Below, one piece after another: positions 17,116 through 56,750 of a stretch of DNA of 64,000 bases. This stretch comes from Isoetes taiwanensis (Eukaryota; Streptophyta; Lycopodiopsida; Isoetales; Isoetaceae), in assembly GCA_021234155.1 (NCBI GenBank), contig JAJEKV010000054.1, positions 5,317,962-5,381,961 on the forward strand, written 5' to 3'. Position 1 is the stretch's first letter; every line of letters starts with the position of its first letter. The translations under genes were made by a program, and so were the position numbers. Below the pieces are notes generated by a model, which saw only the letters and a list, made by a program, of their open reading frames with translations, made no database searches and was not told the DNA's origin.

Positions 17116-20100
17116 TCAGTCAAAGTCACCACAAGAACATGCTCCATCCTTAAAACGATGAATGCGATATGCATCCTTTACTATGATCTCCCGTTGTTCA
17201 ACTTTGGAAATTATTTTAGTCATGCTATGGCAATCCTTGCACGTGCGAAGGTTCTTTGTAGCTCGAATAGTTGTCCCTCCTGGTGTACTGATAAGACCAA
17301 ATGCTATAGCCAGTTTCTCACAATGTCCACATAGGGCATCTTCTTTTTCCTCATTTGTCATTTCTCTCAAAACTAGATTAGTTTGTGGTGCATATCCTTG
17401 TTCCTTCATTTCTTTATTTAGCCGCTTCAATGTGGCGTAAATCTCTTCAATTCTGGGGTGGTTTCTGGCACCAACAATAAACTCATGCACCTTATTTCCA
17501 ATCTCAATCCATGCTCTTGCAGGTTTTTTCTGTGCTCCTGCAGACATTCTCAACTCCTCCACTCTGACAGCCTCTTTTTCCATGTTAGCATGACTAAATA
17601 TGTTTGACATTAGCACATATGCGCTAGCATCATGTGGATCTACCTGGGCAACATGGTCAAAACACCGTTTACCAATCTCCACATTGCCATATGTTCTGCA
17701 GGCACTGAGCAGAGACGTCCAACCCACAAGACTAGTTTCGCAGGTTTTAAGAAAACTGTCTGCCTCATTTAAACGTCCCGCACGGCTAAGAAGATCAACC
17801 ATGCAAGCAAAATGCCTGGGGCTTGCTGGGATGCCATGGTCTTCCATCATAGAGATGAAGTACTGGGAACCTGCCTCCAAAAGTCCTGCATGACTGCAAG
17901 CAGCAAGAATACTAGTAAATGTTATATTGTCTGGCTTGATATTTTTCTTTTGCATATTATCTAGGCACTCTCCAGCCAGTTTAGCATCACCACTTCGAGC
18001 ATATCCAGCAATAATTGCACCCCATGAGACTGCATCTTGTTTTGGCAATGCATGGAATACCTTACATGCTTCCTTCATATTCCCGCATCTTGCGTACATG
18101 TCAATAAGGGCGCCTCCAAGGGCATTGCCTTCAAGCCCACTTCTGATAATTTTATTCTCTATTAGCCTGCCTTGCTCTAAGGCTCCAATACTTCCACACG
18201 CCTTCAAAGCGCTTAAAAATATAACTTCATTTGGTTGAATACCTTCATATTGCATCTTCTCGAACAGTTCAAGAGCAGAAACCCCATGTCCATGACAAAC
18301 ATATCCAGCAATCATCGTTCCCCATGTAACCAAATCACGACCTTGCAAGCTGTCAAATAGCTGTTGTGCTTCCTGTAGATTTGCACATTTGGCATACATG
18401 TCAATAAGGGCACTGCCAAGAAGGGCATCTAACCCTGATCTTGTTGTAATTATATGCTCATGAATAATCCTTCCTTGTTGCACATTTTGAGTGAGGCCGC
18501 ATGCCTTTAAAGCACTTAAAACTGCTACTTTCTCTGGCTTTTGACCCTCTTCCTCCATCCTTTGGAAAAGCTCAAGGGAGGCAATGCCAAGCCCATGCTG
18601 AGCATATCCCATAATCATTGCACTCCATGATATTGCATCTCTTTTTTGTAGTTCATCAAAGACTTTCAGTGCTTCATTTAATTGTCCACATTTGGCATAC
18701 ATATCAATGAGGGTGTTTCCGAGTATAAGCTCATGCTGAAGATCCTCTTTAATTATTTTCTCATGTATCACCTTTCCTTCTTCTAGTGCACCCAGACAGC
18801 TGCATGCTTTTAGAATGCTGGAATAAATGATTTTATTTGGCTGTATGCCTTTATCTTCCATGCATTTGAAAAGTTCTAAAGCACAACTACCATTTCCATG
18901 CTGGATATAGCCTACAATCATAGCCCCAAATGACACCACAGTTTGATTTTGCAGCTTATTAAAAGAAATATATGCTTCTTCTAAACTTCCACATTTACTG
19001 TACATGTCAACTAGATTATTGCCAAGAACAACATCCTCCCCAAGGCCCTGATCAACAATCTGCTCATGTAGAGCCCTACCCTGCTTTAAGGCTCCTGCTC
19101 CTAAGCAACCACATGCTTTTAAGGTGCTTAAAAATATCACTTTGTCTGGGTCTATTCCCTCGTCCAGCATCTTCTCAAAAAATTCTAAAGCTGCAGTGCC
19201 ATGACCTTGTCGAGCGTATGCTTCAATCATAATACTCCACGAAACCAAATTCCTATTATGTAATTTGCTAAACACTCTATCTGTCTCCCCGAGCATCCCA
19301 CATTTGCCATACATGTCAAGAAGAGTATTTCCAAGAACAGCATCTGACTCAAACTCGCTCCCGATGATCTGATCATGCAACATTCTTCCCTGTCCAATGG
19401 CTCCGCTATTCCCGCAAATTTTTAATAAGCTTGAAAACGTAAGTGTATCTGGCTTTATGCCCTTCAGATCCATCGTCTCGAAAAGCTCAATGGCATGATC
19501 AAGCTGCCTATGCTGAGAATATGCTGATATCATTGATCCCCACAATACACTATCACCATTCTGTGACCTTTCAAATGCTTCACGTGCTTCTTGAAGGCTT
19601 CCACATCTATCGTATGCACATACAAGGGATCTTTCAATAACAGCATCTGATTCTAATCCGCTTTTGATAATCTGGCTATGTAAAAGTCTGCTCTCTGTAA
19701 GAACTTCCTTCATTGCACATGCTATGAGAATGGCAATACAAACGTACCTGTCAAATTTTGCTTGTGAAGGAGGGAGCTTGTGGTACAAATCTAGGGCCTT
19801 CTCATATTGCCCAAGTTTGACATGTGAAGAAATAATTGCACTCCATGTATGAACAGAGGGCGTGAAAACTTTATCAAATGCAACATTTGCTTCATAAAGA
19901 TTTCTACAAGAGGCAAATAAACGTATGATGTGGTCACCTAAAACAGAAAAGGCATTGAGTCCATTCCGGATGATAAGGGACTGAACACGCCTACCACCTA
20001 TTAAGTCTTTTTTCTTTACACAATCCTCTACAATGATGTAAGCAGTATTGCGAGATATATGAATACCTTGGTGCTCCATCACCTCCGCGGCCTTAAGTGC

Positions 20101-20154
20101 CATTTCTCCCTGTTCGAAGCTCGTAACATGAAGGACTTCTTCCGACAAGTTCAT
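17116..20154 (-). CDS. PLS-class pentatricopeptide-repeat protein with DYW deaminase domain
   Basis: A single uninterrupted frame of 1012 aa. The ATG at 20154 follows an in-frame TAA about 35 bp upstream. From about residue 85 to 790 there are some twenty PPR motifs in P-L-S order (recurring DMYAKCG, VSWSAMI and GYAQHG signatures), followed by E1/E2 motifs (WTSLLSACRTYGN) and a DYW domain over the last 130 residues. The deaminase signature is complete: HxE as HCE (944-946), CxxCH as CKDCH (972-976) and terminal CxC as CSC (1006-1008). Family members bind organelle RNA and edit C to U. Two oddities: the protein ends DFD, not DYW, and no obvious transit peptide precedes the first PPR motif, so an unseen 5' exon is possible. 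It is intronless, as is common for plant PPR genes. The target site cannot be read from the sequence. Confidence 0.95.
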   Translation of the reverse strand: MNLSEEVLHVTSFEQGEMALKAAEVMEHQGIHISRNTAYIIVEDCVKKKDLIGGRRVQSLIIRNGLNAFSVLGDHIIRLFASCRNLYEANVAFDKVFTPSVHTWSAIISSHVKLGQYEKALDLYHKLPPSQAKFDRYVCIAILIACAMKEVLTESRLLHSQIIKSGLESDAVIERSLVCAYDRCGSLQEAREAFERSQNGDSVLWGSMISAYSQHRQLDHAIELFETMDLKGIKPDTLTFSSLLKICGNSGAIGQGRMLHDQIIGSEFESDAVLGNTLLDMYGKCGMLGETDRVFSKLHNRNLVSWSIMIEAYARQGHGTAALEFFEKMLDEGIDPDKVIFLSTLKACGCLGAGALKQGRALHEQIVDQGLGEDVVLGNNLVDMYSKCGSLEEAYISFNKLQNQTVVSFGAMIVGYIQHGNGSCALELFKCMEDKGIQPNKIIYSSILKACSCLGALEEGKVIHEKIIKEDLQHELILGNTLIDMYAKCGQLNEALKVFDELQKRDAISWSAMIMGYAQHGLGIASLELFQRMEEEGQKPEKVAVLSALKACGLTQNVQQGRIIHEHIITTRSGLDALLGSALIDMYAKCANLQEAQQLFDSLQGRDLVTWGTMIAGYVCHGHGVSALELFEKMQYEGIQPNEVIFLSALKACGSIGALEQGRLIENKIIRSGLEGNALGGALIDMYARCGNMKEACKVFHALPKQDAVSWGAIIAGYARSGDAKLAGECLDNMQKKNIKPDNITFTSILAACSHAGLLEAGSQYFISMMEDHGIPASPRHFACMVDLLSRAGRLNEADSFLKTCETSLVGWTSLLSACRTYGNVEIGKRCFDHVAQVDPHDASAYVLMSNIFSHANMEKEAVRVEELRMSAGAQKKPARAWIEIGNKVHEFIVGARNHPRIEEIYATLKRLNKEMKEQGYAPQTNLVLREMTNEEKEDALCGHCEKLAIAFGLISTPGGTTIRATKNLRTCKDCHSMTKIISKVEQREIIVKDAYRIHRFKDGACSCGDFD

Positions 20155-20204
20155 AGTAGTCTGTCGATCTCTAGTTCTATTTTTTTATTTTTTTAGCAGA
20201 CCAG

Positions 20205-21030: not shown

Positions 21031-21862
21031 CATCTTTGTTGAAGATCACATGCTTAGATTTATGAATATTTGCATTTTTGCAGTTTTATCTAGGGATCCA
21101 AAAGCTTTGTTACTTCTTATTCCCCTTATTGAAGGTTTAGAACAGCATTTATTTTAGTAATTCAGTTTGCCAACACCAATACGGGGGGAACCATTTGGCT
21201 AAATCCTATCCATCAGAGTTCAAATTAGATTAGAGAGTGCAAGTTTTTGCAGAATATAGCCTTTCTTATTAAAATCATACATTTCCATATTCTAAGTGAC
21301 TGCTTCCAGTATTTGTTGTCCCGTTTGATGGGCAGTGAGCTTAACAAACACATTGTTATGTCCAAAATATGGATCCCTTGTACCAAATCACCTGGCATTA
21401 GGAGTTTGCCATGTTGGAGACATCCTTGACATTGAAACTATGCTGATATACTAATACAATTGGGATCTAAGCCAGCATTAGGAGTTTACCATATTGGAGA
21501 CATACCTGATATGCTGATAAACTAATACAATTGCAATTTAAGCCAGAATAGGCCGAGAGGTAGACTTGAATGATAAAATTGTTAGAATGCAAGATGTGGG
21601 ACAGTAACGATGCATTGATAATAATGCTTGCATTACAAGCTGCCGAGCATGTAGCTTATTTTTGTTCTCTCTGTGCCAGTATACCAGCAAGTGCTTCGCA
21701 TTAAAAGGCTTCTAGATGCAATAATCAATGGACTGCCTTCTATCAGTATCTTATGAGACATGGTTACGGTTTGCCAAATATCAAATTTTGAGTACTTGTT
21801 ATATGTTTATATGTAATATGCATGGATTGTAATCTGGCCACTAATACATGGTACTAACCTGC
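21030..21862. repeat. First copy of an 830-bp tandem duplication
   Basis: The sequence starting GCACATCTTTGTTGAAGATC and running to about 21860 is repeated directly after itself. The second copy is split: 21863-21960 matches the first 100 bp, and 23757-24470 matches the rest (AGCAGCATTTATTTTAG onwards). The two copies differ by scattered substitutions and small indels. No gene family is recognised inside. Confidence 0.85.
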
Positions 21863-21960
21863 ACATCTTTGTTGAAGATCGCATGCTTAGATTTATGAAT
21901 ATTTGCATTTTTGCAGTTTTATCTAGGGATCCAAAAGCTTTGTTACTCCTTATTCCCCTT

Positions 21961-23756
21961 TGGTCTCCGTGGACGATAAAAACAATTCTATTATATTCTA
22001 TTCTTATTGAAGGTTTAGATAAGAATGAGAATGAGAATGAGAATGATTTTTTATCGTCCACTGAGGCCGTGCCTCGGGGAAAACTATGGGCAAGACTGCA
22101 ACAGCTGGGGGTTCCTGTAGATTTGCAGAATGCAGTGTACAGGCTATATGAAAGATGCTCGGGTCGGTTGCAGCAGACAAGCCAACCATTTGATAGTAGT
22201 ATCGGGGTTCGTCAGGGATGCCCTCTCTCCCCAACATTGTTTGGGCTTTACATTGATCAATTGGAGAGCTGGCTTGCTGATAATGGGGGCGATGGAGCTC
22301 ACCTTCTCTCTATCGATCATCGACGGTTCATATATGCCGATGATGTGGACCTCCTAGCTTACACACCAGCGGACATGCAACGACATCTCGATGCCCCGGA
22401 CACATTCTCGCCAAGCGACCGATATGCTTGGCGTCAATCCGCCAAGACTAAGGTGGTTTTCATATCATCTTCACGTCACCGAGGGTCCCCTCCTTCCAGT
22501 TACCAAGGCGAATGTGGAAGTTGCATCCAGATACAAGTATTTGGGAGTGGAGTTTCCTTCTACTATGCTTTGGGACACATCCATACTGACCACGAAAGTG
22601 ACGGCATTTGGAAGGCACTATATGCAATGCAAAACAATAGTCATAGAGCGGAGTTGTATGATTGGGCCCATCAGTCACACATGTTCAAGGTCTTAGTAGA
22701 GCCTGTCCTTTTATATGGGGTGGAAGTATGGGGCCCAATAGTATCACTTGCTACCGGAATGACTTGGAGCAGTCCGTAAAGCCTTCTTAGTAACGAGCAC
22801 TAGGGGTGAAGTCCACAGTCCCATATCAAATTCTATTGCAGGAGACAGGATTCTTGCCTCTTCAGAGGGCGGCCCTTGATCGCCACATTGTCTATTTTCA
22901 GAAGGTGGTCAATATGGACGATGCTCGTCTCCCTAAACTAGCTTATATCATGGCATTGGGGCCGCTCAAGGCCTGCTGGAGGGAAAAGAGAGCTCAATGG
23001 TTGGCTAGATGGAATGTGCAGGAGCACAGGTGCATACATATGCAAACAGAGGCAGATCGCCATAGCTTGAGGCAATATCTTGACGCTTGCTTCCTCAGCA
23101 AGCTTTGGGATGCCAATGCCCTTGAACATGTCAAGACAACACACTATCAGCGCCACATAAATCCCACATTGGAACGAGGCCCGCAATGCTACCTGCGTAC
23201 CCACTTGCCCATGAAAAGGCGCAGACTCATTGCCTCCATTCGCACAGGGGCACATCATCTTCGAATTGAGACGGGCAGATGGATTGGTGAGCCACGCCAG
23301 GACAGGCTCTGTCAATGCTGCCAAATGGGAGTCATTGAGGATGAATCTCATACCCTTCAAAGTTGCCCAGCATATGATCAAATTCGGACGCGCTATGCTG
23401 AGTTGGTCAGGCCTGGCCAGCCATTACATGTGACATTGAGCACAGCATCCGTATGGGTGCTGGGAAAGATAAGATAAGATGAATTTTTACGTCCACTGGA
23501 ACCCAACGGGTTATGGGACGGCATATGCAAGGGCAACAGCCCATCTAAAACCTGGGGACGAGGCCCCGTCACCAAACACAAGAACCAAATATTAAAAGAC
23601 TACCAAGAAGAAGATAATGCTAATGCTAGAGGTAATTTTGTGCTTCTAAAATTATCTAGACATAGCCTGTCCAAGGATTGGAAGGCCATTGATCTAGAAT
23701 AATTGCTGCGCCTCCTCTGTACACTGCCCATTTCTTTTGCAAGCATTTAGAAGAGA
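21961..23756 (+). mobile_element. LINE insertion block splitting the second copy of the tandem duplication
   Basis: The block starts with a short sense 3' terminus (GGTCTCCGTGGACGATAAA plus an ATTCT-type tail, to about 22005) followed by 13 bp of host sequence. Next comes an antisense 3' terminus with a GAATGA-repeat tail (22018-22058), then a sense LINE body (22060-23475), then another antisense 3' terminus with an AAGAT-repeat tail (23468-23500 onwards). At least two insertions, or one with inversion, are needed to explain this order. Confidence 0.75.
22060..23477 (+). pseudogene. LINE (non-LTR) reverse transcriptase, 5'-truncated
   Basis: Two consecutive frames carry the C-terminal two thirds of a LINE ORF2. 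The first has VPRGKLWARLQQLGVP, then GVRQGCPLSPTLFGLYID (RT palm) and the catalytic YADD box near 22335. The second has a long connector and the C-terminal zinc-binding segment, with CQCCQMGV, EDESH and CPAYDQIRTRY near 23310-23390. The endonuclease domain and the N-terminal RT motifs are missing. At least one frameshift lies near 22400 and a stop near 22779. The body aligns with the second LINE at 28.3-30.6 kb, so both belong to one family. Confidence 0.85.
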
Positions 23757-27525: not shown

Positions 27526-28298
27526 CTGCAATAAAATTCCAAATAAGAGTTGAGAGTCCTTTATAACCTTTTTATTAGAAAATGCAATCATTTGCAAAAT
27601 CTTTTTTCGATAGAAATCATTATTGAACTACCTTGTAAGGTAGACTATCATTTGGCAAGCACCTCATTTTAGTTGGCATGAGCTTCTGTTTAAATGACAT
27701 AAAAACTACACTTTCCACCTCCATATGCGAATAAAACATGTATTGCCATATAGATAGTTCATTCTAAGCCCTCGAATGGTAGGATATCCTGCCATTGCAT
27801 TTTTAATTATATTGGAATGCTTGTTTTTATCCCAGGGATTTCATCTAGGCATATGGGGATACCTCATCTGCGTGCAAGGGGTCACCAGAAAACCCATGTA
27901 TACGACTTTTTGGAGGTGGAAAACCCCTACATACGTTGGGAAAAAGCCAGTTTCGAAGCCCCCTTCCATAGATGTACTTATGGATTATCTTCATTTTTAC
28001 ATACCCCTACCCGATCTTGTACTGACGTTTGCATACCCAAGGCTTATTTAAAGGAAAAATGGTGTTTAGAGAAATTTCATAATGTTTTTCATGCACATTG
28101 CTTACAAAGAATGGTTGGAAATGGTTGGATTGTTGGGAATACATATGGCATATTAGAATATGGCATGGGATATGGCATATTGGAATATTTAGAAATACTT
28201 AATGGGTAGGAAATACGTTAATGAATACGTATGGTATACTCAATGGTATATTGGTTGGGGGTATATTGGGCATAATACCCCCATAATATGGCATATAA
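27526..28298. other. Intergenic; dispersed repeat at 27830-28045
   Basis: The segment starting CCCAGGGATTTCATCTAGGC at about 27830 recurs at about 53695-53915 with high similarity (shared words CGTGCAAGGGGTCACCAGAA and GTGGAAAACCCCTACATACG). After it comes a local run of ATATGGCATATT(A/G)GAATA words at about 28140-28190. No coding family is recognised. Confidence 0.55.
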
Positions 28299-30600
28299 GG
28301 AAGGAAGGAAGGAAGGAAGTTACTTTTATCGTCCACGGAGACCAATCGGTCTATGGGACCCAATACAAAAAAAACAAGCGGATTTCGCCCCGGATTAAAA
28401 ACCCCCGCCCAAGGGTTTTCGAGGGAAAACCGTGGCGGCAAAGAATCACTTCACGACAAACCGCGGCTAATCATATAAAATGCAGAAACATCCCAATATA
28501 TACAGTCATGCACCACCCCCGTAGTGCCTAGTCAGCGGACAGCCAGGCGGGGGCAAAGGTGACCTCGCAGGTCCAATTACCTCCTGGATGTATGACCCGT
28601 GGCGCGTCCGGCGGTGTGTTGTTCGGCAAATGCAAGGGCACGCCCAAATTACTAAGGGGAGCCGATCCGCCCGAATCGGATCAACGCCGGGCAACTCGAA
28701 AGTGTGAGACTCATCCTCAAGCGGCACCCGCTTGGTAAAGACCGACAGAGCCCGGCTCCCGGCGGGGCTCCCCAATCCACCCGCCCGCCTCGGGACGCGA
28801 AGATGGTGGGCACTGTATGCGAATGGAGGCAATGAGCCTGCGCTTTTTGGGCAATTTGGGAACGCAGGTAGATTTGTGGGCCCGGGCTAACACGGGTTGA
28901 TGTGCTCCTTGTAATGGGCCATTTTGACCTCGCTTCTAGAGCAATGGGGTCCCGTGAGCTTGCCAAGGAAACAAGCATCTAGGTACTCCCGCAGTCATCA
29001 CGACGGGTCACGCTCACCAGATTGCGCGCATCAGGTTCTCACGCAAGACGTTCCATCCGGGCGAACCAGCGATCTCTCTTACCCCTCCAATAAGGCCTAA
29101 GCCGCCGCGGACTCATGGCCACAAGTAAGCCAGTCGCGGGAGCCGAGCATCACCCATAGTAACCACTTTTTCGAAAATAGGCGATGTGTCTATCAAGGGC
29201 TGCCCGTGGCGGCAAGAATCCGTTTCTGCAGATAATCCGATAGGGGACTGAAGGTTTCACCCCAAGTGCCCGCGCCTAAAAATGCCTACGCACTGCTCCA
29301 AGTCATTCCAGTCGTCAAAGAGACGCCAGGGCCCTAAACCTCGACCCCGTCTGAAGGGACGGGCTCGACCAAAGGTAATCGAACAGATGTGACCGATGGC
29401 CCCAATCATATAGCTTATAGCGGTGGTATTTGTTGTTACGCATTGCATAAAAGCGCTTTCGGCCTCTTTGTCACATAAGCCGGATAGGCGCCTCACAGAG
29501 GCGAGGAGGGGAACTCCACCCCTAGGTACTTGTAGGTGGGCGTGACGCCTACTGGCCGCCCCCGATATGTGAGTGCAGGAGGCATGGGGTGACGTGAAGA
29601 GGATATGAGAACCACCCCGGTCTTGGCCGATTGACGCCAAGCATGTCCAGAAATCGTAGCGACAAAATGTGTCTAGGGCATCCGTGTGAGATCGCATATC
29701 TTCGGGGGCCAAAAGAAAGCCAACATCGTCGATAGATGAGTGGCGGATGACACAGTGCAAAAGATGTATGCCATCCCCCATGCTCGCGAAGCCGTGGCTC
29801 TAACCGATCAATGTAGAGGGCAAAAAGTGTCTCATGAGGGGCAACCCCTTGGGACCGATACTCATCGGGTAAATGCTTGGCCTGGCCGACCGCAGAGATC
29901 CCGCCAAAACAACTCTCATACAACCTCAGATATGGCATTCTCGCAATGCGGTGGGAGCCCCATTGACGCTGATCTAGCCCACAACTTTTTTCAGGGGACC
30001 AGATCAAAAGCCTTTTTAAGTCCACAAAGCAGACAATACAAGTCCAAAGGTGATTAAACCGGCATCTTCAATCAAGGCCCGCCAGTAAAGATATGGTCAA
30101 TCGTTGAGTGGCGGGGTCGAAGCCCGCCGTGAGGGCTCGACATCCATTTGCCTCGCGCCGCTGGTCAATCTGCCGCTTTCGAGAATGCCACCAACGGTTT
30201 GGCAAATACCGAATCGACCATGATCGTCCGGTGAATTGGCCGGACGGTGTGGATCGCCCGCGCTTTGTGAATGGGAACAACCCCGCGCTTGTGGTCCATT
30301 GTCGGGAAACCCTCCCGCAATGCTCGTTGAACAGGGTAGTGAGGACCGGCACAAGCGGCTGCCCTGCCCACTTGAGTAACTCGGCCTGCATACCATCGAG
30401 GTCAGCTGCCTTTCCATTAGCTAGCCGTTGCAGGCCCTCCTCAACATCCTCATCCACGAGAACCAATGGGGGGCCATCCTGTGGGGGTATGGGCGTACGC
30501 GTCCCTGGCGGGTCATAGAGCCTGGCTGCAAGTATCATTCCCACCGCCCGGGTGTGATGTCCCCTGTAGGCTGGGCTGGCCTTCGAAGCATAAGAGGGGA
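28299..30600 (-). pseudogene. Second LINE copy, degenerate, with GGAAG-repeat 3' tail
   Basis: Minus strand, read from about 30.6 kb down. RT N-terminal segment at 30068-30544 (LQRLANGKAADLDGMQAELL, then LVPVLTTLFNEH). VVPIHKA-type motif in another frame at 30165-30371. Palm region at 29549-30025 (ETLFALYIDRLEPRL). A decayed catalytic box at about 29740 reads SIDDVGFLL where the sister copy has YADDVDLL. C-terminal zinc region at 28506-28978 (GPQIYLR, EDESHTF). The 3' UTR ends in the family terminus (antisense TCGTCCACGGAGACC near 28330) followed by a GGAAG microsatellite tail (28299-28319). At least four frameshifts make it non-functional. Confidence 0.85.
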
Positions 30601-31110
30601 GAGGCCTATTAGCAGTTAAAAAAAAAAAAAAAAACTATTATTGCATGGCTAGGGTTTCGAGCCCCAATTCTGCATGCAGCATTATGGACATAATGGCCTT
30701 CATAAACCCTTGATTGGACGCTGCCGCCTTCTCCTATAAGAGAAGATTCTTCATCTTCTCTTCTCGCCAGATTCTTCATCCCTTCTTCATTTTCTCTGCC
30801 ATATTGTTTGATCTTCTTTTCTTCATCCGCTTCTTTATGGCGAGGCTCAAGTATACTGCCGGGAGCCCAAGAAAAAGGACGAGTCCTCTTCTTCCAGCCA
30901 TCTGGGCATGCAAACGACCTTTGTGGCAAAATTCTCAGCCTTGGAGGTGGAGCGATTGCAGAAACAAGGAGCTTCAGTTTCGGATAAAGTGCAGCAGTGG
31001 GTTGATCATGTTGATCCTGAAGATAAGCGTCTTTTGCAGATGAGCATGGAAGCTGATGGGATTTACCTTCCTGTGGCTCTGAAGATGCCCCCTCCCGATT
31101 ACTTTTAGTG
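30601..31110 (+). other. Unidentified open frame beside an A-tract
   Basis: A 17-A tract at about 30617-30634 is followed by a C/T-rich, leader-like stretch. A plus-strand frame can then be read from about 30800 to a TAG at 31106-31108. Its first internal ATG is at 30908 (66 codons). The peptide is serine-rich then amphipathic, with EVERLQKQGASVSDKVQQW and VDPEDKRLLQMSMEADG. I do not recognise it. It could be the terminal exon or a fragment of a small gene. A histone-like MARLKYTA start in another frame at 30837 is not continued. Confidence 0.3.
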
Positions 31111-31650
31111 ATGAAATCTTCGGAATACTAAGTGTTTTTTTTGCTGTACAGTTCAAAGTAGTTATTAAATCGGATATAAAGGATGTAGAGTGTGCAAATC
31201 CCATGCAAATGTGTAATGTGGTTCGAGTATGTGGACTGTACCGGGGTTGTATCCCTCTATTTGGTCTCCTTCTGGGTTTCTAAAAAATGTTCAAGCTTTT
31301 TTCGTAAAAAGGCCGAAGTCGGGCTTCAAATCTACAGGCTTTTTGTTAAAAACAAGCTTAAGTACTAATATAACATGGTTTTTGAATCTGACAGTCTTCT
31401 GAATCTGGAATACAATTTTTCTAATAGTATAATTTGTTAAAATAGAAATTCAGTGACAAAGATAACAATGTTTATCACTGGAATTCATTGTTAACATTTC
31501 TTTGTCTGCTTGGGTTTCTGGGTTTCTTATATCAGAATGTTTTGTACTTTCTGTTATGTACTTTCTATCTATCTACTACAAGCAAATCCCAAGCAGATAT
31601 ACATTCAGATACATTTAAGAATGATGGAACATAGAAACCATTTCACATAA
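31111..31650. other. Intergenic, nothing recognised
   Basis: AT-rich sequence without identifiable features. Confidence 0.4.
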
Positions 31651-31975
31651 ACTGAATTAGAAAGCAAAGAAAGGAACAAAGCCAACAAAGCAAGCATACT
31701 TATACACCTCAATGTAAACAAAGGAATAAATGATGGACTGTATATTGGGGTTAGAATCTAATTGCTGAAACTGAATTATAAAGCAAACAAAGGAACAAAG
31801 CACACATACTAATACACCTTAATGCAAACAAATGAATAGATGCTGGAGTTTGTATTGGGGTTAGCATTTAAAAGGTGAAACTGAATTACAAAGCAAACAA
31901 AGGAACAAAACATACATATTTATACACCTTAATACAAACAAAGGAATAAATGTTGGACTATGTACAAGATTGCAA
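31651..31975. repeat. Three imperfect tandem copies of about 110-119 bp
   Basis: The word ACTGAATTA(G/T/C)AAAGCAAA occurs at 31651, 31770 and 31880. Each is followed by AGGAACAAA, TATACACCT(C/T)AAT and GGAATAAATG-like words in the same order. Copies are diverged by roughly 10-15 percent by eye. No gene is present. Confidence 0.8.
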
Positions 31976-32445
31976 CATTTTTACATTAGGAGCTGCCATT
32001 TTTTACCATTTCTCCTCAGATATTCTCTAGCCTTCTCTAGCACCAAATAGCAGATGTTCATATACAGCGCTTCTTACATTTCATTTTTCAAGACTTTCTT
32101 ATAAGCTTTGCCAAAGCAAATTTTGAAGCAAGTTCAAATGGCTGGAGATGAATCCAAAACTTGGAGGATATGTCTGTAGAAAGAAGTCTCCATTCCTCCA
32201 TTCTCCAATAATACAAAATAGGGGAAGCTAAAGAAACCTGCTTATGAATCAAATGTTCTTATTCTGAGCACGCCTTCTCCTTGTTCATGTCCCTTCATGT
32301 TGGAAGCAAACTGTAAACATAGCAAATCCAACAATTAGAAACCAGATGTCTCAACATAAACTGTACCACAGATTCAGTTTTAACACAAGTTGCATTTTAG
32401 TTTGAAGTGAACATGTCTAGAATTCGTGAAGAGGCCTTGAACCAA
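31976..32445. other. Intergenic, nothing recognised
   Basis: AT-rich; probably the 3' flank of the minus-strand transposase-like pseudogene. Confidence 0.35.
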
Positions 32446-32448
32446 ACT

Positions 32449-35400
32449 TCAAAGAAGCTTTGCCTTGCCTTTATTTCCTGCCACAAACATTTTTTCATCA
32501 GACAAAAATTCAGGAATACAACTAAGCCAACATACACTTTTTTTCTGATTAGCCAAAAACTTATTAAATTGCAACATATCATGATCATCAAGCTGGTATC
32601 TACCATTGTCTGGGTTATACGTTAAAGAAGCTAGTGCTATCACGGAATCTAATGAGATTGATCGACTATCTGATAGATCAAAACTGTACCACAACCTTCT
32701 ACCTGCTTTATGCTCAATATACCAAGCCAAATTAAGCTTTATAGGTTATGATGGTCTGTCAACCAAATATACTGGCTCTCTAGTTTCTTTCCATGCTCTT
32801 CCAAGTTTCCTGCGCATATTAAACACTCTTCCCAAATACCATGGTTGCATCATGTCTTTCTTATTTCTGTTTCTTAGCTCTTTCTCAATCCTAACACCCA
32901 TCTCAAAGTAGATTGCACAATCTGACCCGATACCAAGAGAGGTTGCTGCATTCATGCAGTTGCCCTTAGGGCTTATAAGAGACTGTAGCTTCACCTTAGT
33001 CAATCTATCTTTGGACAGCTATAAATTACCATTTAGTTGGCTAACCAAAGTGCCTTTACAAATAAGTTTATTATCAAGCATGACATTTCTTTCTATCTTT
33101 TTGAAAGATGGTGCATCTATCTCGTCTACCATGGAATCAAAACTATGCCTTCGCTCTAATTCTGCTGTAATCTCACTAGGCAGGTCATTATTGATTGTTG
33201 GAATACAATCATTTCCTTGTTCTAAACTCACATCATTTGACTCATCTCCAAGCATGGTCGTGTCTAGTTCTTTGAAGTAGTCCTTGTTGAAGAAATCTTC
33301 ATGCTTCCAAGGTTTGCTCCACCAAGTATCTTCTCCACTTTTCTCACAAGTGATTTCTACACGTGCACATAATTCTGATGCATGTTTGAGTCCTGCCTCT
33401 AATGCTTCTACTATCATCTCATCCGTGGCTACAAAGGTGTAATCACTTAAGTCACACCTCAATTCCTTGCCATCCCCATCCAACTTCTTCTCCACGACTT
33501 GCCAAATGTTCTCCTGCTTGGCATGAGCTGCTGGAAATATCAATTCTCCAATTGACTGAAATTCTGCCACTCTATTAAGAGCACTCGCACTCTCAAATAC
33601 ATCTACACCTGTGTAGGATCTTTCGTTCCTTACCATTCCACCTATCTTCAAAATTCTCACATGCATCTGACCCTGTGGCATCCAATGGGACAACAAGCTC
33701 TTTACAAAAATCTCTAAAAAACCTTATAAGTAACACAACAAAATGGCAAGAAAGTTGAATGTCCAGAAATGTCTCACAACTAATGAAATTTGATTTCAAA
33801 CAATGTGTCTCATGTCTTGAAATCCAAAGTCTCCATAACCTGTAATATTCCAAGTTCAATAAGATAGTAAGAAATAGGTACCATAATTATGAACAGAAAT
33901 AGATACGAACATGCTTACCTGAAGAAGAAAGATACGGTTGAGGTAGCTTTTATCCGGTTCCATAGATCCATGTGAGAAGATAGGAATATGTCAATGTAGA
34001 GGGAAACCACATAGAGATAAGTTTCGGTCCCCAATGTTCGCATTGGATTACAAGACTTTGGATCACGTAATTTCTCCAAGCACACTTGAACTCTTCGAGA
34101 GGAGATCCTCTGGGCAGCTCGCCAATTTTGCCTGTCTCTTCTTTCCACATCACCTATTCGAAGACCATGCTCACCTTGATAGTTGTGGAAAATATGCCAC
34201 ACGTCATTTAGAGTGATGAGTTCATCACCCAAGTAAAGCCTCCGAGATGCATTGTCAAGAGGATTGATGAGATTCTTCCCATTATGGATGAAATCTTGAT
34301 CATGTAGACCGTGTATATTGCTATCTTTCTTCAGGGCAGCACTAAAAACCCATCCTTCCCATGGAATGGCAAACTTCCTTCCTCTTTCTTTCAAAGAAGT
34401 GTAATCTTCTAACATACAAGCCCTCCGACGTGCATCTCCATCGCAAGAGTGTCCAATTAGTGGACCTAACACGCTTCTTAAGCGTAAATTCCAGAAATGC
34501 GCTATTTGTTCCCATTGAGATCTCATGGCCTCATGGTCAAACCTGTTGCATGTTAGCTGTATGGACAAAACCAGTTTGGGCAAACTTGCATGTAATGGAT
34601 TCACAATAATCACACGCGCATAATGTGCAACCACATTCATCTCAAATGCATCAACAATATTTCTGAACATGAACTACAAAATTAGTGATACAATGATGAT
34701 CCTCTTTGGACCCACAAAAACCTATCAAACTATCATCTCTTGCACACCATTGCACTGCCTTCTTGATTACGGTCTCATCCTCGGCCACGATAGTTGGCGC
34801 ATTTCCATGGATCAAGCCATTTTTCAAGACATGATTGGAATATATCTTAGCCAAGTATGCAAATGTCTCCTCATTTATTCCAGCCTTGTAGCAAAGTGCC
34901 TTACCTATAGACCGCCTTGTTGTTGACAAACTTAGACCTCCAAAGTTCATGGATAGAAAGTTATGCATCCTCTTCCCTCCCCAAATTTTGATTGTTTCAG
35001 ACAACTCCTTTGTTGTTTTCTTGTACCGCTTCTTATGGCCGGGCCTTGATATATTCTGCGCAATGTCAGTTAAAAAATTCCACAATGCAGGCTTGCCTTC
35101 AAACTTACCACGAGAATATGCCTCTTTAACATCCATACAAAACTTATTCACATCACCATGTTTCATAGATTCACACAAGGTGTCTCGGAGAGATCTTATC
35201 TTTACTGACAATGCAAGTTTCCTTATTCTGCATAATCTCAATTCCATTCTCAAGCTTCTATTTTGAATCCTTGTTTCCTTGGCAAGGGTGCGCAGCACGA
35301 ATTTGCCAAATAGTCTACTCTCAAATGGAATTTAGTATTCCTCAAGCCTCGGTCCACTTTCTCCTCACTTTGTCTATAAACTCTCATGCGAAAGTCTCTT

Positions 35401-35597
35401 TCCTTTGGGACAACAGTGCAGTAAGAACATTGAAAGTTTGGAAACATGGCAGCTTTTGCGCTCACTCTAGCACATTTGACATGCCTAAATGTTCCTTGGA
35501 TCTTAACTACCCTGCCATCTACCATGAACTCTTCATGCAAATCTGGTTCACAATACCAATTTAGGCCTGCCTTAGAATCATCTAAGAATGGCCTCAA
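32449..35597 (-). pseudogene. Large transposase-like pseudogene with P-element/THAP9-like motif order
   Basis: Minus-strand blocks line up over about 3.1 kb. In order: a Cys-rich N-terminal block (35597-35250: WYCEPD, HVKC, FQCSYC); a basic segment and an acidic VAEDETVIKK motif (Asp near 34779), then SLIGFCGSKEDHHC; IGHSCDGDARRR (Asp near 34442); HDQDFIHNGKNLINPL (near 34300); LRIGDVERRDRQNWRAAQRI; TYLYVVSLYIDIFLS; and, after a clean 79-bp GT-AG intron (33918-33840) that splices in frame, RLWRLWISRH, then QLSCHFVVLL, GSDACENF and GGMVRNERSY. A long C-terminal region runs to 32449. The order (acidic DE motif, second Asp, DxxHxxKNxxN, helical insertion, ENFF-like tail) is that of P-element/THAP9 transposases. 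About three frameshifts and two in-frame stops show it is dead. Membership in a named family is inference; it may be an undescribed relative. Confidence 0.6.
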
Positions 35598-35599
35598 AT

Positions 35600-36235
35600 C
35601 CCTTGTCTTAGATGCATATCTTTATGTTAGTTGCCAAAAACCCCAACATAGATATGCCAGATGCAAATTTCCTGTCTATTATTTTTTTCCGAAAATTTCA
35701 ATGAGAACAAGAACCAAATACAATGAACTATAAACAAACAAACAACTAAGGGTATATGTACCCTTTACATACTTGAATTCTGGCTTGAATGGCTCTTCAC
35801 TTTAAATTTTGGATGAGGAATAGAATATCAATCATGCAATATAAGTGGAGGCTAGTCGATAAGTTGTGGATGCATATGCAAGGAATCGAAATGTAGAAAA
35901 GGGGGCCTACAGTTGAAGTTCTTATTCCTAGGGGGGAGCCAAAACCACTTCCTCCTTTCAAGATCCTTAAAGACTCTAGCCAACTAATGAACGACATCCA
36001 AGATTACATAACACACTGTGAGGATGTTCGAAAGGGAAAGCACACCTCGTCTCTGAAGAAAAATCACATGGACTTCCTAATCAATTACTGCGAGAAAGTT
36101 ATGCATGATTAGAAACAGAACAACCATGTGGGGGGAAGCTGAGAGACGGTTTCTTGCCAGAGTCTAGGTGGGAGGGTTCTCATGGAGCAAGCACATCACA
36201 TCAAAGAAAGTTGGTTTGGATCCCAACAATGGCTC
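35600..36235. other. Intergenic, nothing recognised
   Basis: No gene or repeat boundary identified, apart from the start of the dispersed repeat at about 36238. Confidence 0.4.
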
Positions 36236-47322: not shown

Positions 47323-47887
47323 GAACATTTTATAAAGGTTGCTAGTATGCATCATAGTGGGTGTTAAAAAAGGTCGACCTCTGTCCACCTTTATTTGCGT
47401 TCAGGAAAAGGGCGTGTCTTAAAAAGGCTGATTCCCGTCTATAAAAGAAAGCTCTGTTCTGATTGAAGGGACACAGTCCCCGCCTGATCTATTTCCTCTG
47501 GAATAATCTGGAAGCTTTGCCTCTTTGGTTAATACCAGTTCTAGTTTAATTGTTGAACTTTTGTGTCAAGGAAACGATTTCTTGATAAGTCTGAGCTCGG
47601 TTGGGTGGATACATTCTCCTAAAGATTGGAGTATTGATTTTCTTTAGCTTTAACAGTTTACTTTGATAGTCTTCCTATATCATATCACGGAGACTTCGTT
47701 TTAGGGATTCTGCTGGGAGGGATATCGGAATCTGGGTGCCTTTAATAATAAAGGTCTACTGCCTTTCTTTCATTTTAGGGTTGTCGGAGACTTCTTTTTT
47801 CCATCAAGATCAACTTGATCGATTATTTTTTGTGCCCAATTGACCATATACTGTTTTTCACCTTTGCGTTGATTGAAGCAGGGCAGG
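47323..47887 (+). promoter_or_regulatory. SRP54 upstream region with probable 5'-leader intron acceptor
   Basis: The pyrimidine-rich stretch before 47880 ends TTGAAGCAG directly before GGCAGGATGG. This looks like a splice acceptor 7 bp before the start codon, suggesting a 5' UTR intron. No TATA box can be assigned with confidence because the leader exon is not identified. Confidence 0.4.
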
Positions 47888-49351
47888 ATGGTTCTAGCAG
47901 AGCTTGGAGGGCGCATCTCAAATGCGCTCAAACAGATGAAAAATGCTACCGTCATTGATGAGAAGGTATTGACGGAGTGTTTGAATGAGATTTCCAGAGC
48001 TTTGTTCCAGTCCGATGTGCAGTTCAAAATAGTACAGTCGATGCAGAATAACATTAAGAAAATCGTTAACCTGGACGAATTGTCTGCTGGACACAACAAG
48101 AGAGGTATGATTGAGAAGGCTGTGTTCAATGAATTGTGTAATATGCTTGATCCTGGAAAGCCTTCTTATACCCCCAAGAAAGGAAAATCAAATGTTATAA
48201 TGTTTGTTGGTCTCCAAGGCTCTGGAAAAACCACAACATGTACAAAGTATGCGTATCACTATCAGCATAAGGGCTTTAAGCCAGCTTTGGTTTGTGCCGA
48301 TACATTTCGAGCTGGTGCATTCGATCAGCTTAAACAGAATGCCACAAAAGTGAAAATTCCTTTCTATGGCAGTTACACAGAAACAGACCCTGCCAAAATT
48401 GCTCTACAGGGACTTGAGAAGTTCAAGAAAGAAAATTGTGATTTAATCATTATAGATACTAGTGGAAGGCATAAACAAGAAGCAGCACTTTTTGAAGAGA
48501 TGTGTCAAGTTGCAGAAGTTACAAAACCCGACCTTATCATCTTTGTTATGGACAGCAGCATCGGGCAAGCAGCTTATGATCAGGCTCAGGCTTTCAAACA
48601 GAGTGTTGCAGTTGGTGCAATAATCTGCACAAAGATGGATGGACATGCGAAAGGTGGCGGTGCGCTTAGCGCAGTGGCAGCCACAAAGAGTCCAATTACA
48701 TTTCTAGGAACAGGAGAGCATTATGATGAGTTTGAACCTTTTGACACAAAGCCATTCGTTAGCCGTTTGCTTGGAATGGGAGATTGGAGTGGCTTCATGG
48801 GCAAAATCAATGAAGTCATTCCTATGCATGAACAACCAGAACTCCTGCAAAAGCTAAGTGATGGGAACTTTACCTTGCGAATAATGCATGATCAGTTCCA
48901 AACTATCCTTGGCATGGGACCACTTAGCCAGCTTATGTCTATGATTCCTGGATTCAGTGAAGAAGTAATGCCTAAGGGAAGGGAGAATGAGAGCAAAAGT
49001 AAAATCAAGAGATTCATGACAATAATGGACTCCATGACTAATACAGAATTGGACACTACAAATGTTAAGACATTTGAGCCTTCAAGGATAATAAGAATAG
49101 CAAGAGGAAGTGGAAGGACCATCTCAGACGTAGTTGGCATGTTAGATGAGTACAAAAGGTTAGCCAAGATATGGAGCAGGATGAAGGGCTTGAAGCTACC
49201 AAAGAAAGGAAACATGAACTTGAATACACATAATATGAATGCCCAACTTATGAGCAAGGTTTTGCCATCAAAAATGCTTAAGGAGATAGGTGGTGTTGGA
49301 GGTCTACAAGGTTTGATGAAGGAAATGACTAGAAAAGATTTTGCTTGTTGA
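47888..49351 (+). CDS. SRP54: Signal recognition particle 54 kDa protein (cytosolic SRP54), uninterrupted frame
   Basis: A 487-aa frame starting at ATG 47888 ([11 protein letters not shown], the conserved SRP54 N-terminus). N domain with a helical bundle (1-90). GTPase G domain with G1 GLQGSGKTT (108-116), G2 DTFRAGA (138-144), G3 DTSGR (190-194), G4 TKMD (248-251) and G5 GTGEH (274-278). Methionine-rich M domain (about 300-487) with [16 protein letters not shown] and [15 protein letters not shown]54 binds signal peptides and 7S RNA and, with the SRP receptor, targets ribosomes to the ER. Its length matches plant SRP54 (about 495). Flowering-plant SRP54 genes are split by several introns, so an uninterrupted frame plus an A-tract at about 49664 suggests a retrogene. 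The C-terminus is slightly altered by a 35-bp tandem duplication at the stop. All key residues are intact, so it may be functional. Confidence 0.93.
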
Positions 49352-52847: not shown

Positions 52848-55062
52848 AAAAAAAGGTGTTAAAAAAAACAAAAAAAGTTGTGTTAAAAAACCTAGCAGGA
52901 TTCTCTTACCCTATAGCTTGTATGACTTCCATGGAATGTACACCAACTTCCTTTAAGCTTTTGAATGTCCAGTCTACAATATGCACTTAAATGAAATTTG
53001 TTATTCAAAAAAAACAGTCAAATAGTAGTATTCCAGAATTGGCCCAAGCAATTGATATGTGCTAAGATAAAATCTTGCAAGGACTGGTTTGAATTTCTGA
53101 ATATAACCAAAGGCAAATGTAAGCTACAAAAAAAGGGGCATCTAAATGTAGGGATAGAGCCAAATATACATGTGGAATATCTCAGTTCGAATAGTATGCA
53201 TAGAGTGAGACTTGAGCATTTAAGGGCAGATCCTAAACCACCTAAAGCATCAACTTCAGAATCAACTTACCATCAATTTCAGCCTTGCATTACCTTAGTT
53301 TTTTGTCGTGCCACCTAGCCACTTCCTATTAGAATTGATGAGCTCAAAGAAGATATCAGCACAAGAAGCAAAAACGTCAAAGGGGGCAACAGGACAAAAC
53401 TTAGATTAAACTGAAGTGACCTGATTACATTTCTAAGAGATCCCATTAACACTTCTACGCTGACACATACATGTCTCTACTAAGATGACATGTGTCCTAA
53501 ATAGTCATATGTTTCATACATTCTAACACACCCTCTGAAACAAATGACTATGATTGGTTAAAACAGAAAACAAGATAAAATGACGGGAGTGGTTTGTTTT
53601 ATTTGTCTCTGATGAAGATCACACGCTAAGATTTTGATCCTAATGCTTCTCTCCCTTCAATTGATTCTTCATCATACTCAGAGCCTCCTTAAACCCCAGG
53701 GATTTCACCTAGGCATATGGATATACCTCATCTGCGTGCAAGGGGTCACCAGAAAACCCCTGTATACGACTTTTTAGAGGTGGAAAACCCCTACATACGT
53801 AAATAGAAAAAGCCAGTTTCCATGCCCCCTTCCGTAGATGTACTTACGGACTATCTTAATTTTTACATGCCCCTACCCGATCTTGTACTCGGTTTGTGCA
53901 CCCTAGCCTTATTTAGAGAGTCACTTTCATATTCAATCGCATCACCCGGACTGGGTGATGCCGCAGGCTTCTTAGCCTTGGCACCCATACGAAAATGCAA
54001 GGCGCCAAAAGGTCTGCCTTACGAGTACTTCCGCCTTATCCAAGAGGATCCTAGCATTCTAGCATACCTAAACAATAAGCCACTCTTGTGGAAACATGAA
54101 AAAAGAAACATACGTTATGCTTTCAGTTTTTGACAACAAAAGTTATTTGAAGAGGTCCACAATTTGTTGTATCTCTAAACTATCTACTTTTGGGAGATGA
54201 TGGTGGATAATGGTGTTACATTATCCATCATCATCTCCCAAAAGTTATTTGAAGAGGTCCACAATTTGTTGTATCTCTAAACTATCTACCGTTGGGAGAT
54301 GATGGTGGATAATGGCGTTACATTAAATTAAGAACTAGATTATTTTGACTGGAGGAATACATGATGGGATCAAAATTGTACTATTTATAGGCAGACAAAC
54401 AAAATGCAACATGGTATTTACTATGAACATAAAGAGTAAGATGCATTAATTATCCACATTTGTTAAATATAATAGCAAAATTGCTTATTGAGCCCAATAT
54501 TGATTTAAGTTGAAAGCATAGCAAGTATAAAACCCCCAAATGTTTAACGACATGATGCAAAAGATAATGGATGTTTTGATATTGATTTGGACAAAGTTCC
54601 CTTGTTTTTATTCGCTAGAAGTTTTTAGGAATCACAGTTTGACCACCTTCTAGAACCTATAGCCATTTTATTTTCTCGGATCCAGATGAGAATCTCTGAA
54701 GCTTGTATTCAAAGTCTTAAAAATAGGTCCAACACTACAAAATTTTACTAGTAGGAATCTGCAACGCCAATACATGCCCATGGGGTTGCATTTGCATGAT
54801 GGAGATGTGCAATCCAGGTAGTAACGGTTTATGCTATACCTCTTCATCTATGTGCATAAAATTTAGAAACCCCTCATGCTGGTTATTATAATGGGCACAC
54901 TTTAGTGCATTGTCTGGAAAATTTTGTCATCTGTATAGTAAATACCAGGAACAATCACCCAAGGACAGAAAGCCAGCTGCTCATTCTCATTAAAGAAATT
55001 GTTTATGTTCTTGTCCAGTACCATTCTCCCAATAGGCTGCATCACAAGACCAAACGTTAGCT
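52848..55062. repeat. SRP54 3' flank, second copy, interrupted
   Basis: 52850-53075 matches 49678-49900, and 54166-55062 matches 49899-51000 minus about 300 bp. Between them lie about 1.09 kb of other DNA, including a copy of the 27830-28045 repeat at about 53695-53915. A small hairpin with flanking direct repeats at 54136-54290 marks the right junction. Confidence 0.85.
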
Positions 55063-56480
55063 TCTACCCTTTCATGAGGTTGACTCCGGTAACATATTTT
55101 ACTTGATAGCATGTATATAACATAGAAATGAGAGCCCAAAGAAAAGGAACAATTTGACTGCGCTCATGTAGTGTATCATGAAAAATGAGAGCCCAAAGAA
55201 AAACGATTATTAACAGAATATAACTATCATTAATACCATTTTGGTGAATTTGACTACTAAGAGTTGTGCTTAAATTAGATACAGCTAGTCGTCGCAAGTC
55301 TATAAGTCCAAATTCAACCCTAGACAAAATCAAACCAAGCTACATGCTACTAGATTCCAATGGAACTTACAGTGTCTCTTTTCCTCCCTTGTTTATAAGC
55401 TGTAAAAGCACGAATCTATGGTCAGAATAATATAAATGTCAAAGCTCAGACGAACTGCCACAAATATGGCTAGAATAATACGATGTGCCTGGCTTGCAAA
55501 TCAAATCCACATTACACCTTGCATTTTGTTGCTATTATTTCAAGCTTCTTCAATACCATGTTTATATTCCATATATGCAAATACATGAAGAAATACTTCA
55601 CTCTTATAAGATGAAAGTTATGTAGTCATATAAATCCTAAATCAGAAATAAATATCAATCTATACATGCATTCTTATTAACCCATTGCTTATTTTCTGAA
55701 TCATAATATTTTAGACCTGGGATTAAGCAACATAAGTTTCCCACAAAACAAAACTATATAAAACAAAGACACTCAAGTTTAAATCTAAGTATAATCTCTC
55801 TTTTATGTATTTTTTCGGCCATTATTATCCATTCTTATCCCTAAGGACAAATATTAAGGAAATATACGAAATCTTTAACCTGATATGCATTGCTCCTAGC
55901 ACCAGCATTCTGCCTTTGATCTGGTTGTCAGATAGTTTTTCATCGAAGTCGAATCTTTGCTTTTAACTTAGCATGGTCTTTGCACAAGAGCATCGGGCAA
56001 AAATTATACCATTACTATTCTAGCCAGGACATTGCCCAGCAAATACAGTCATCTCCAAGGAACAAGCTTAAATGGCAACAGCATCATCATCAACCAGAAT
56101 CACCACAGAAAATAATGTATGCCAAACTTGCTTACTGCAAATAACTCTTCAAGCTGCAAAAATTGAGAGATAAGGAATGTAATACGCTTCTTCAGCTATG
56201 GAGCGGGAGGGGAAAAAAATAAACCTGCTTGTGGCATTCGTACCTGGATGTTTTTTCAGCCTAAACTTCCAGGCTAAACTTCCATGCTAATACAAGCTTG
56301 GCATACAAACTTGGCATATCTATGGCGTCTTGGATGCTTAATGTATGATACAGGAATGGAGGTTCCCACCCATCTCCCCTTGTCGACTAGCTACGGCTCC
56401 AAGGCGGAAAGCTCGTATTTTGCCTCGTCCGTATACGGGCGGTTTGGGAAAAAAAAACCCATAACTAGTCACGCACTTGC
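55063..56480. other. Intergenic, nothing recognised
   Basis: AT-rich sequence with a short local duplication (GAGAGCCCAAAGAAAA at about 55130 and 55187). It probably includes the 3' end and LTR region of the Copia relic, but I could not delimit an LTR. Confidence 0.4.
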
Positions 56481-56750
56481 TTTATACGGGTATAATATAG
56501 TGAAACCCCTGGGCCTTAAACCTTATGAATTTCTTACCCACAAGTGCTTTTGTAAAGCCATCTGCAACTTGGTTCTTAGAGAAACAACGAAGTAAAATAT
56601 TTATCTTTATCTTTATACGGGTATAATGTAGTGAAACTCCTGGGCCTTAAACCTTATGAATTTCTTACCCACAAGTGCTTTTGTAAAGCCATCTGCAACT
56701 TGGTTCTTAGAGAAACAACGAAGTAAAGAGCATGTCACGCCAAATTGAAC
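56481..56750. repeat. Tandem duplication (141-bp period) of the Copia pol C-terminus
   Basis: TTTATACGGGTATAAT(A/G)TAGTG occurs at 56481 and 56622, and each copy continues for over 110 bp. In the minus-strand frame both encode NQVADGFTKALVGKKF, the end of the Copia RNase H/pol region. Confidence 0.9.

Follow-up and report, generated by a model that had tools for sequence, protein, structure and literature searches.

A stretch of 64,000 nucleotides from the genome of Isoetes taiwanensis, hereafter the window, contains a series of protein motifs that a preliminary description, covering positions 32,449 to 35,597, likened to the RNase-H-fold transposases of the P element and THAP9. The locus raises the question of whether a transposon family of the P type resides in this genome, or one that is built on a similar plan and belongs elsewhere among the DDE transposases. 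The host had been taken for a fern, whereas Isoetes taiwanensis is a lycophyte. The table of land-plant TIR superfamilies in a 2022 review lists Tc1-Mariner, hAT, Sola, MULE, PIF-Harbinger, and CACTA, and P is absent from it (PMC9033089); in the titles and opening abstracts that we searched, a partial sample of the literature, no report of P elements in land plants appeared, and none of the passages at hand from the Isoetes genome papers names a DNA-transposon superfamily. The family described below may already be entered in Repbase or Dfam.

The window also carries an open frame of 1022 aa that combines a DYW deaminase domain with PPR repeats and E motifs (17116-20184, minus strand), an uninterrupted open frame of 492 aa with all three SRP54 domains (47873-49351, plus strand), and a reverse-transcriptase-like frame (21817-22779, plus strand; Pfam RVT_1, E 7e-9). 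The presence of the PPR-DYW gene and the SRP54-type gene is consistent with a plant host.

A Decayed Transposase Gene and Its Element

The decayed transposase gene spans about 35,621-32,524 on the minus strand, and every one of the ordered motifs of the preliminary description was recovered in it: AEDET in the frame at 34651-35331; GHSCDGDARRR, DQDFIHNGKNLIN, and RQNWRAAQRI together in the frame at 33915-34673; GSDACENF in that at 33593-33886; and GGMVRNERSY in that at 33019-33723, all on the minus strand. The exon 2 remnant (33919-35621, minus strand) consists of three frame pieces and contains a Cys/His-rich segment, a helical region, AEDET, GHSCDGDARRR, DQDFIHNGK, and RQNWRAAQRI. The exon 3 remnant (32524-33839, minus strand) contains GSDACENF...GGMVRNERSY and a C-terminal extension, in which the frame shifts once and two in-frame stops divide the pieces at 33019-33723, 32746-33018, and 32449-32745. 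Between them lies the proposed intron (33840-33918, minus strand; 79 nt), which has GT...AG borders and would be spliced out; in 14 other copies an intron of 63-91 nt with GT...AG borders occupies the same position. Compared with the full-length copy L007, exon 2 of the window is 81-84% identical over its three frame pieces and exon 3 is 73-78% identical over two. A tblastn search for the N-terminal exons of the transposase found none in the window.

The element extends well past the interval first described, as far as a 3' terminus at 27,831. It is a 5'-truncated transposon remnant (27831-35794, minus strand), delimited by this terminus and by DNA similarity to the copies L015, L016, and L007; the similarity to L015 and L016 ends at 35,794, and the 5' end of the window element was not found. 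Its terminal inverted repeat, CCCAGGGATTTCATCT, is the 3' end read inwards (27831-27846, plus strand). Relative to L015, the 3' part contains an additional 2.2 kb or so that is partly GC-rich (28031-30836), and several overlapping frames in this extra sequence gave no Pfam match. The 3' part also includes 110-bp direct repeats, three in tandem, at 31670-31999.

Family Size, Termini, and Target-Site Duplications

A search with a 252-aa piece of exon 2, with scoring limited to 150 of 797 candidates, revealed at least 151 matches in the 1.66-Gb Isoetes taiwanensis genome, counting the piece itself, and because of these matches the motif set does not reflect chance. Among the matches listed, the others are 56-92% identical to the piece, many of them in long open frames. 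Two other members used as queries gave 133 and 135 matches, with much overlap between the lists, and long unbroken frames were again common; stops are present in many family copies. One form of the 3' terminus, a 26-mer, occurs 258 times with at most two mismatches, against 0 occurrences of the reversed control.

Target-site duplications were sought at 12 loci of 9.0-9.5 kb, with the terminal sequence not preset, as an exact direct repeat beside an inverted repeat of 14 nt in which up to three mismatches were allowed. An exact 8-bp repeat is present in 7 of the 12 loci (L006, L007, L008, L009, L011, L012, and L016) and absent in the other five (L005, L010, L013, L014, and L015), while repeats of 7, 9, 10, 11, or 12 bp were found in none of the 12; at 4-6 bp the test gives no discrimination. 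The seven 8-bp duplications differ from one another, and none has TTAA as its repeat unit. In a cross-locus control that joined halves of different loci, 7, 10, 6, and 3 of 132 pairings matched at 7, 8, 10, and 12 bp, respectively, and we suspect that these matches stem from repeats common to related loci.

The full-length elements at the seven loci with 8-bp repeats measure 6,857-8,784 bp. Their termini are of a CCCGGGG..TTCACC-like form: they start with CCC, continue in a G-rich run, and in the majority of ends go on to TTCACC; L011 and L012 have CAA instead of CCC at one end. In their longest alignments, three copies (L007, L008, and L009) share 96-98% identity, and movement has therefore been fairly recent. 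The preliminary description proposed to search fern genomes for intact copies with TIRs and 8-bp target duplications; here, in a lycophyte genome, full-length elements of 6.9-8.8 kb have inverted ends and such duplications, and 8-bp duplications recur at two shorter elements. It is close to certain that the gene encodes the transposase of a TIR DNA transposon family.

The first of these shorter elements lies in the window itself (53695-56513, minus strand; 2,819 bp) and has no detectable transposase; it resembles full-length copies over about 225 bp at their 3' end and 65 bp at their 5' end. It is flanked by the 8-bp target-site duplication CCTTAAAC at 53687-53694 and 56514-56521. Its right end is located inside a 131-bp tandem duplication (56480-56569 and 56611-56700; 98% identical), so that the terminus and CCTTAAAC are present twice and either copy could be the original end. 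A promoter/terminator scan of 53690-53800 returned nothing. The second, a gene-less element of 471 bp with ATGATGAT as its 8-bp repeats, is nested in a transposase copy (L004, 2304-2774), and a similar insert starts at the same site in L003.

Coding Constraint and Putative Catalytic Residues

To characterize coding constraint, we computed dN/dS among 41 exon 2 core sequences, which form 820 pairs, 626 of them saturated and without a value. The median falls with rising divergence, from 0.34 (36 closest pairs) through 0.30 (11), 0.23 (18), 0.15 (15), and 0.11 (3) to 0.09 (111). Purifying selection acts on the transposase; the values of close pairs are raised because some copies have decayed.

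At the N-terminus, two BED-like C-x2-C...H...H patterns can be read by eye, and the top Pfam matches of this region are both weak (zf-C17orf113, E 0.022; zf-BED, E 0.44). The motifs then follow in the order HxxC...CxxC, helical region, AEDET, C-x5-H-x-C, SDGDxRRR, HDQDFIH, GDVxRxDRQNW, D, and CENFF, and about 376 residues extend beyond the Glu in the L011 frame. The acidic residues are strongly conserved: D54 in 38 of 38 sequences, D173 and D219, together with H222, in 40-41 of 41, D320 in 38 of 40, and E428 in all 25. Their spacing is D-119-D-46to49-D-101-D-85-E in most rows examined; L024, L031, L050, and L056 differ from 101, and L024 also from 85, exceptions that are probably due to small deletions.

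Passages of PMC8230255 place the corresponding residues of the Drosophila P transposase at D230, D303, D339, D444, and E531 (intervals of 73, 36, 105, and 87) and those of human THAP9 at D374, D414, D519, and E613 (40, 105, and 94). The last three intervals of the Isoetes family agree well with these values, and the first D-D interval is 46 longer than in P. Like the P superfamily, the family combines putative catalytic D, D, and E residues with a [C/D](2)H motif that follows the second Asp.

Profile Searches and Predicted Structure

The comparison with Pfam P-element families that had been suggested for this locus yielded no match, either for 35 A2 members (E<=1) or for six window pieces (E<=10). 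Genome scans with PF21787, PF21788, PF21789, and PF12017 matched at no family place and show little, as the controls gave a signal in 0, 0, 1, and 1 of 14 genomes, respectively; a PF12017 match at C1025 (E 0.168, above the cut-off only with its neighbors) lies outside the family places and was rejected. Five N-terminal pieces contain no THAP domain at E<=10, and a genome scan with PF05485 (THAP) found none, which shows little because its control rang nowhere. No hAT transposase or hATC profile was matched by the 35 A2 members (E<=1) or by eight C-terminal pieces (E<=10). Pfam, NCBIfam, and the PDB sequences gave no convincing match for the transposase, and the PDB search did not recover the P transposase. 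A WWE match on the C-terminus in the window (E 0.063) was attributed to chance, being absent from the eight C-terminal pieces, and other weak Pfam matches were scattered and likewise taken as chance. None of 55 pattern matches in IMG/VR or 38 in GTDB contigs proved to be a relative.

Structure prediction gave low-confidence models. The A2 model, a 1034-aa read-through of exons 2 and 3, has a mean pLDDT of 40.6, and its re-alignment produced no row at Z 5 or more. The A4 core model (495 aa, from 54 family sequences) has a mean pLDDT of 46.0 and is weak evidence for that reason. In its better part, residues ~16-170, strands and helices are predicted in an order consistent with an RNase H core; the first strand carries D1, and D2 comes just after a later one. 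A Foldseek search with the core model gave 305 matches at E<=10, of which not one passed E<=0.001; RAG1 complexes occupy the first four places, and Hermes is among the non-significant rows. On re-alignment to 998 chains, 13 reached Z 5 or more. The Drosophila P transposase (6p5a_A) is the top-ranked transposase, with Z 6.0 and an rmsd of 3.7 over 124 residues, where model residues 15-220 align to chain residues 200-339, a range that takes in D230, D303, and D339 and covers only the part before the helical insertion. In the P superfamily this insertion splits the RNase H fold between strand 5 and helix 4, and GTP serves as a cofactor. Among the matches listed, sugar kinases reach up to Z 6.5, level with the P transposase, and the ISCth4 transposase scores 5.2 and 5.1, a ROK regulator 5.1, and RAG1 4.2 or less; according to the tool's own warning, a Z under 8 may reflect only a common arrangement.

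Placement among DDE Transposases

The P superfamily, to which the Drosophila P element, zebrafish Pdre2, and human THAP9 belong, shares with the Isoetes family the 8-bp duplications, the D..D..D(2)H..D..E order, similar values for the last three intervals, and the weak fold match of the core model to 6p5a; gene-less derivatives alongside full-length copies, as seen here, are also described for P in a passage of PMC7776569. The family is unlike P in its lack of detectable profile similarity, in its BED-like patterns where no THAP domain was found, in a D1-D2 interval of 119 versus 73 with C-x5-H-x-C inside it, in the ~376 residues after the Glu (L011), in its terminal sequence, and in its lycophyte host. 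The proposed P/THAP9 plan is therefore upheld in motif order, similar spacing, 8-bp duplications, and a weak structural match, while identification as a plain P/THAP9 element is not, given the missing Pfam P-element profile, the absence of THAP from the five N-terminal pieces, and the low confidence of the structures. It is likely that the catalytic part is built on the P plan, and deep, divergent kinship with the P superfamily is therefore the most likely descent of the family. Taken as a whole, the reading of the locus as the decayed transposase gene of an Isoetes taiwanensis TIR transposon family that moves by cut-and-paste, with a catalytic part on the P/THAP9 plan and such a descent, has in our estimate a probability of roughly 0.65. 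Because neither the profile nor the THAP searches placed it there, we term the family P-like and do not assign it formally to the P superfamily.

Other placements fit parts of these data. More tentatively, the family might represent an undescribed DDE superfamily in lycophytes, perhaps more widespread, that is sister to P and distinguished by BED-type instead of THAP fingers, the extra C-x5-H-x-C in the RNase H domain, and the long C-terminal extension; the P plan would then have been arrived at, or kept, in plants. Similar GHxSDGD proteins occur in invertebrates. A separate superfamily that is not especially close to P, having in common with it the 8-bp stagger and the general plan of a split RNase H but branching elsewhere, is also rather unlikely: it would account for the missing profile match to any named family, the longer D1-D2 interval with its conserved C-x5-H-x-C, the BED-like fingers, and the RAG1 complexes at the top of the Foldseek rows, but the spacing of D(2)H, the next Asp, and the Glu is close to that of P/THAP9, and P is the best-ranked transposase on re-alignment. 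RAG1/Transib, for all its leading (non-significant) Foldseek rows, differs in target duplication, which is 5 bp in Transib and 8 bp here. The C/DxxH motif between the second Asp and the Glu is described for Kolobok as well (PMC9587614), but Kolobok duplicates TTAA, not the varied 8 bp of the Isoetes family.

The 8-bp duplications, together with a split RNase H plan, are also characteristic of hAT elements such as Ac/Ds and Hermes, and Hermes appears in the Foldseek rows. A divergent hAT element is nonetheless improbable to us, since no hAT profile is among the Pfam matches, the D2-E distance is about 232-235 residues versus ~324 in Hermes, with hAT spacing in general unlike that of the family, and hAT termini do not resemble CCCGGGG. 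hAT elements are listed for land plants in the review table cited above (PMC9033089). The rival reading of a family of host genes, or of a repeat that does not move, has in its favor the purifying selection, which would also fit a host gene family; against it stand the similar inverted termini with differing 8-bp repeats at 7 of 12 loci, the 258 termini, the gene-less copies with 8-bp repeats, and the stops in many copies. These observations contradict that reading for the family as a whole and leave it scarcely credible, although single copies may have been domesticated.

Proposed Mechanism and Implications

For the P-like transposon, we propose that the N-terminal zinc fingers would bind the transposon ends, and that a split RNase-H-fold domain with an Asp-Asp-Glu triad, broken by a helical insertion, would cut both ends and join them to the target at positions staggered by 8 bp. 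The short gene-less copies may be mobilized in trans.

The presence in a lycophyte of a P-like family that is large and was recently mobile would extend the P plan to a wider set of hosts, and it would offer an independent lineage in which to test which parts of P, such as the THAP domain and the GTP-binding insertion, are essential. The family would also provide a missing model for the annotation of lycophyte repeats.
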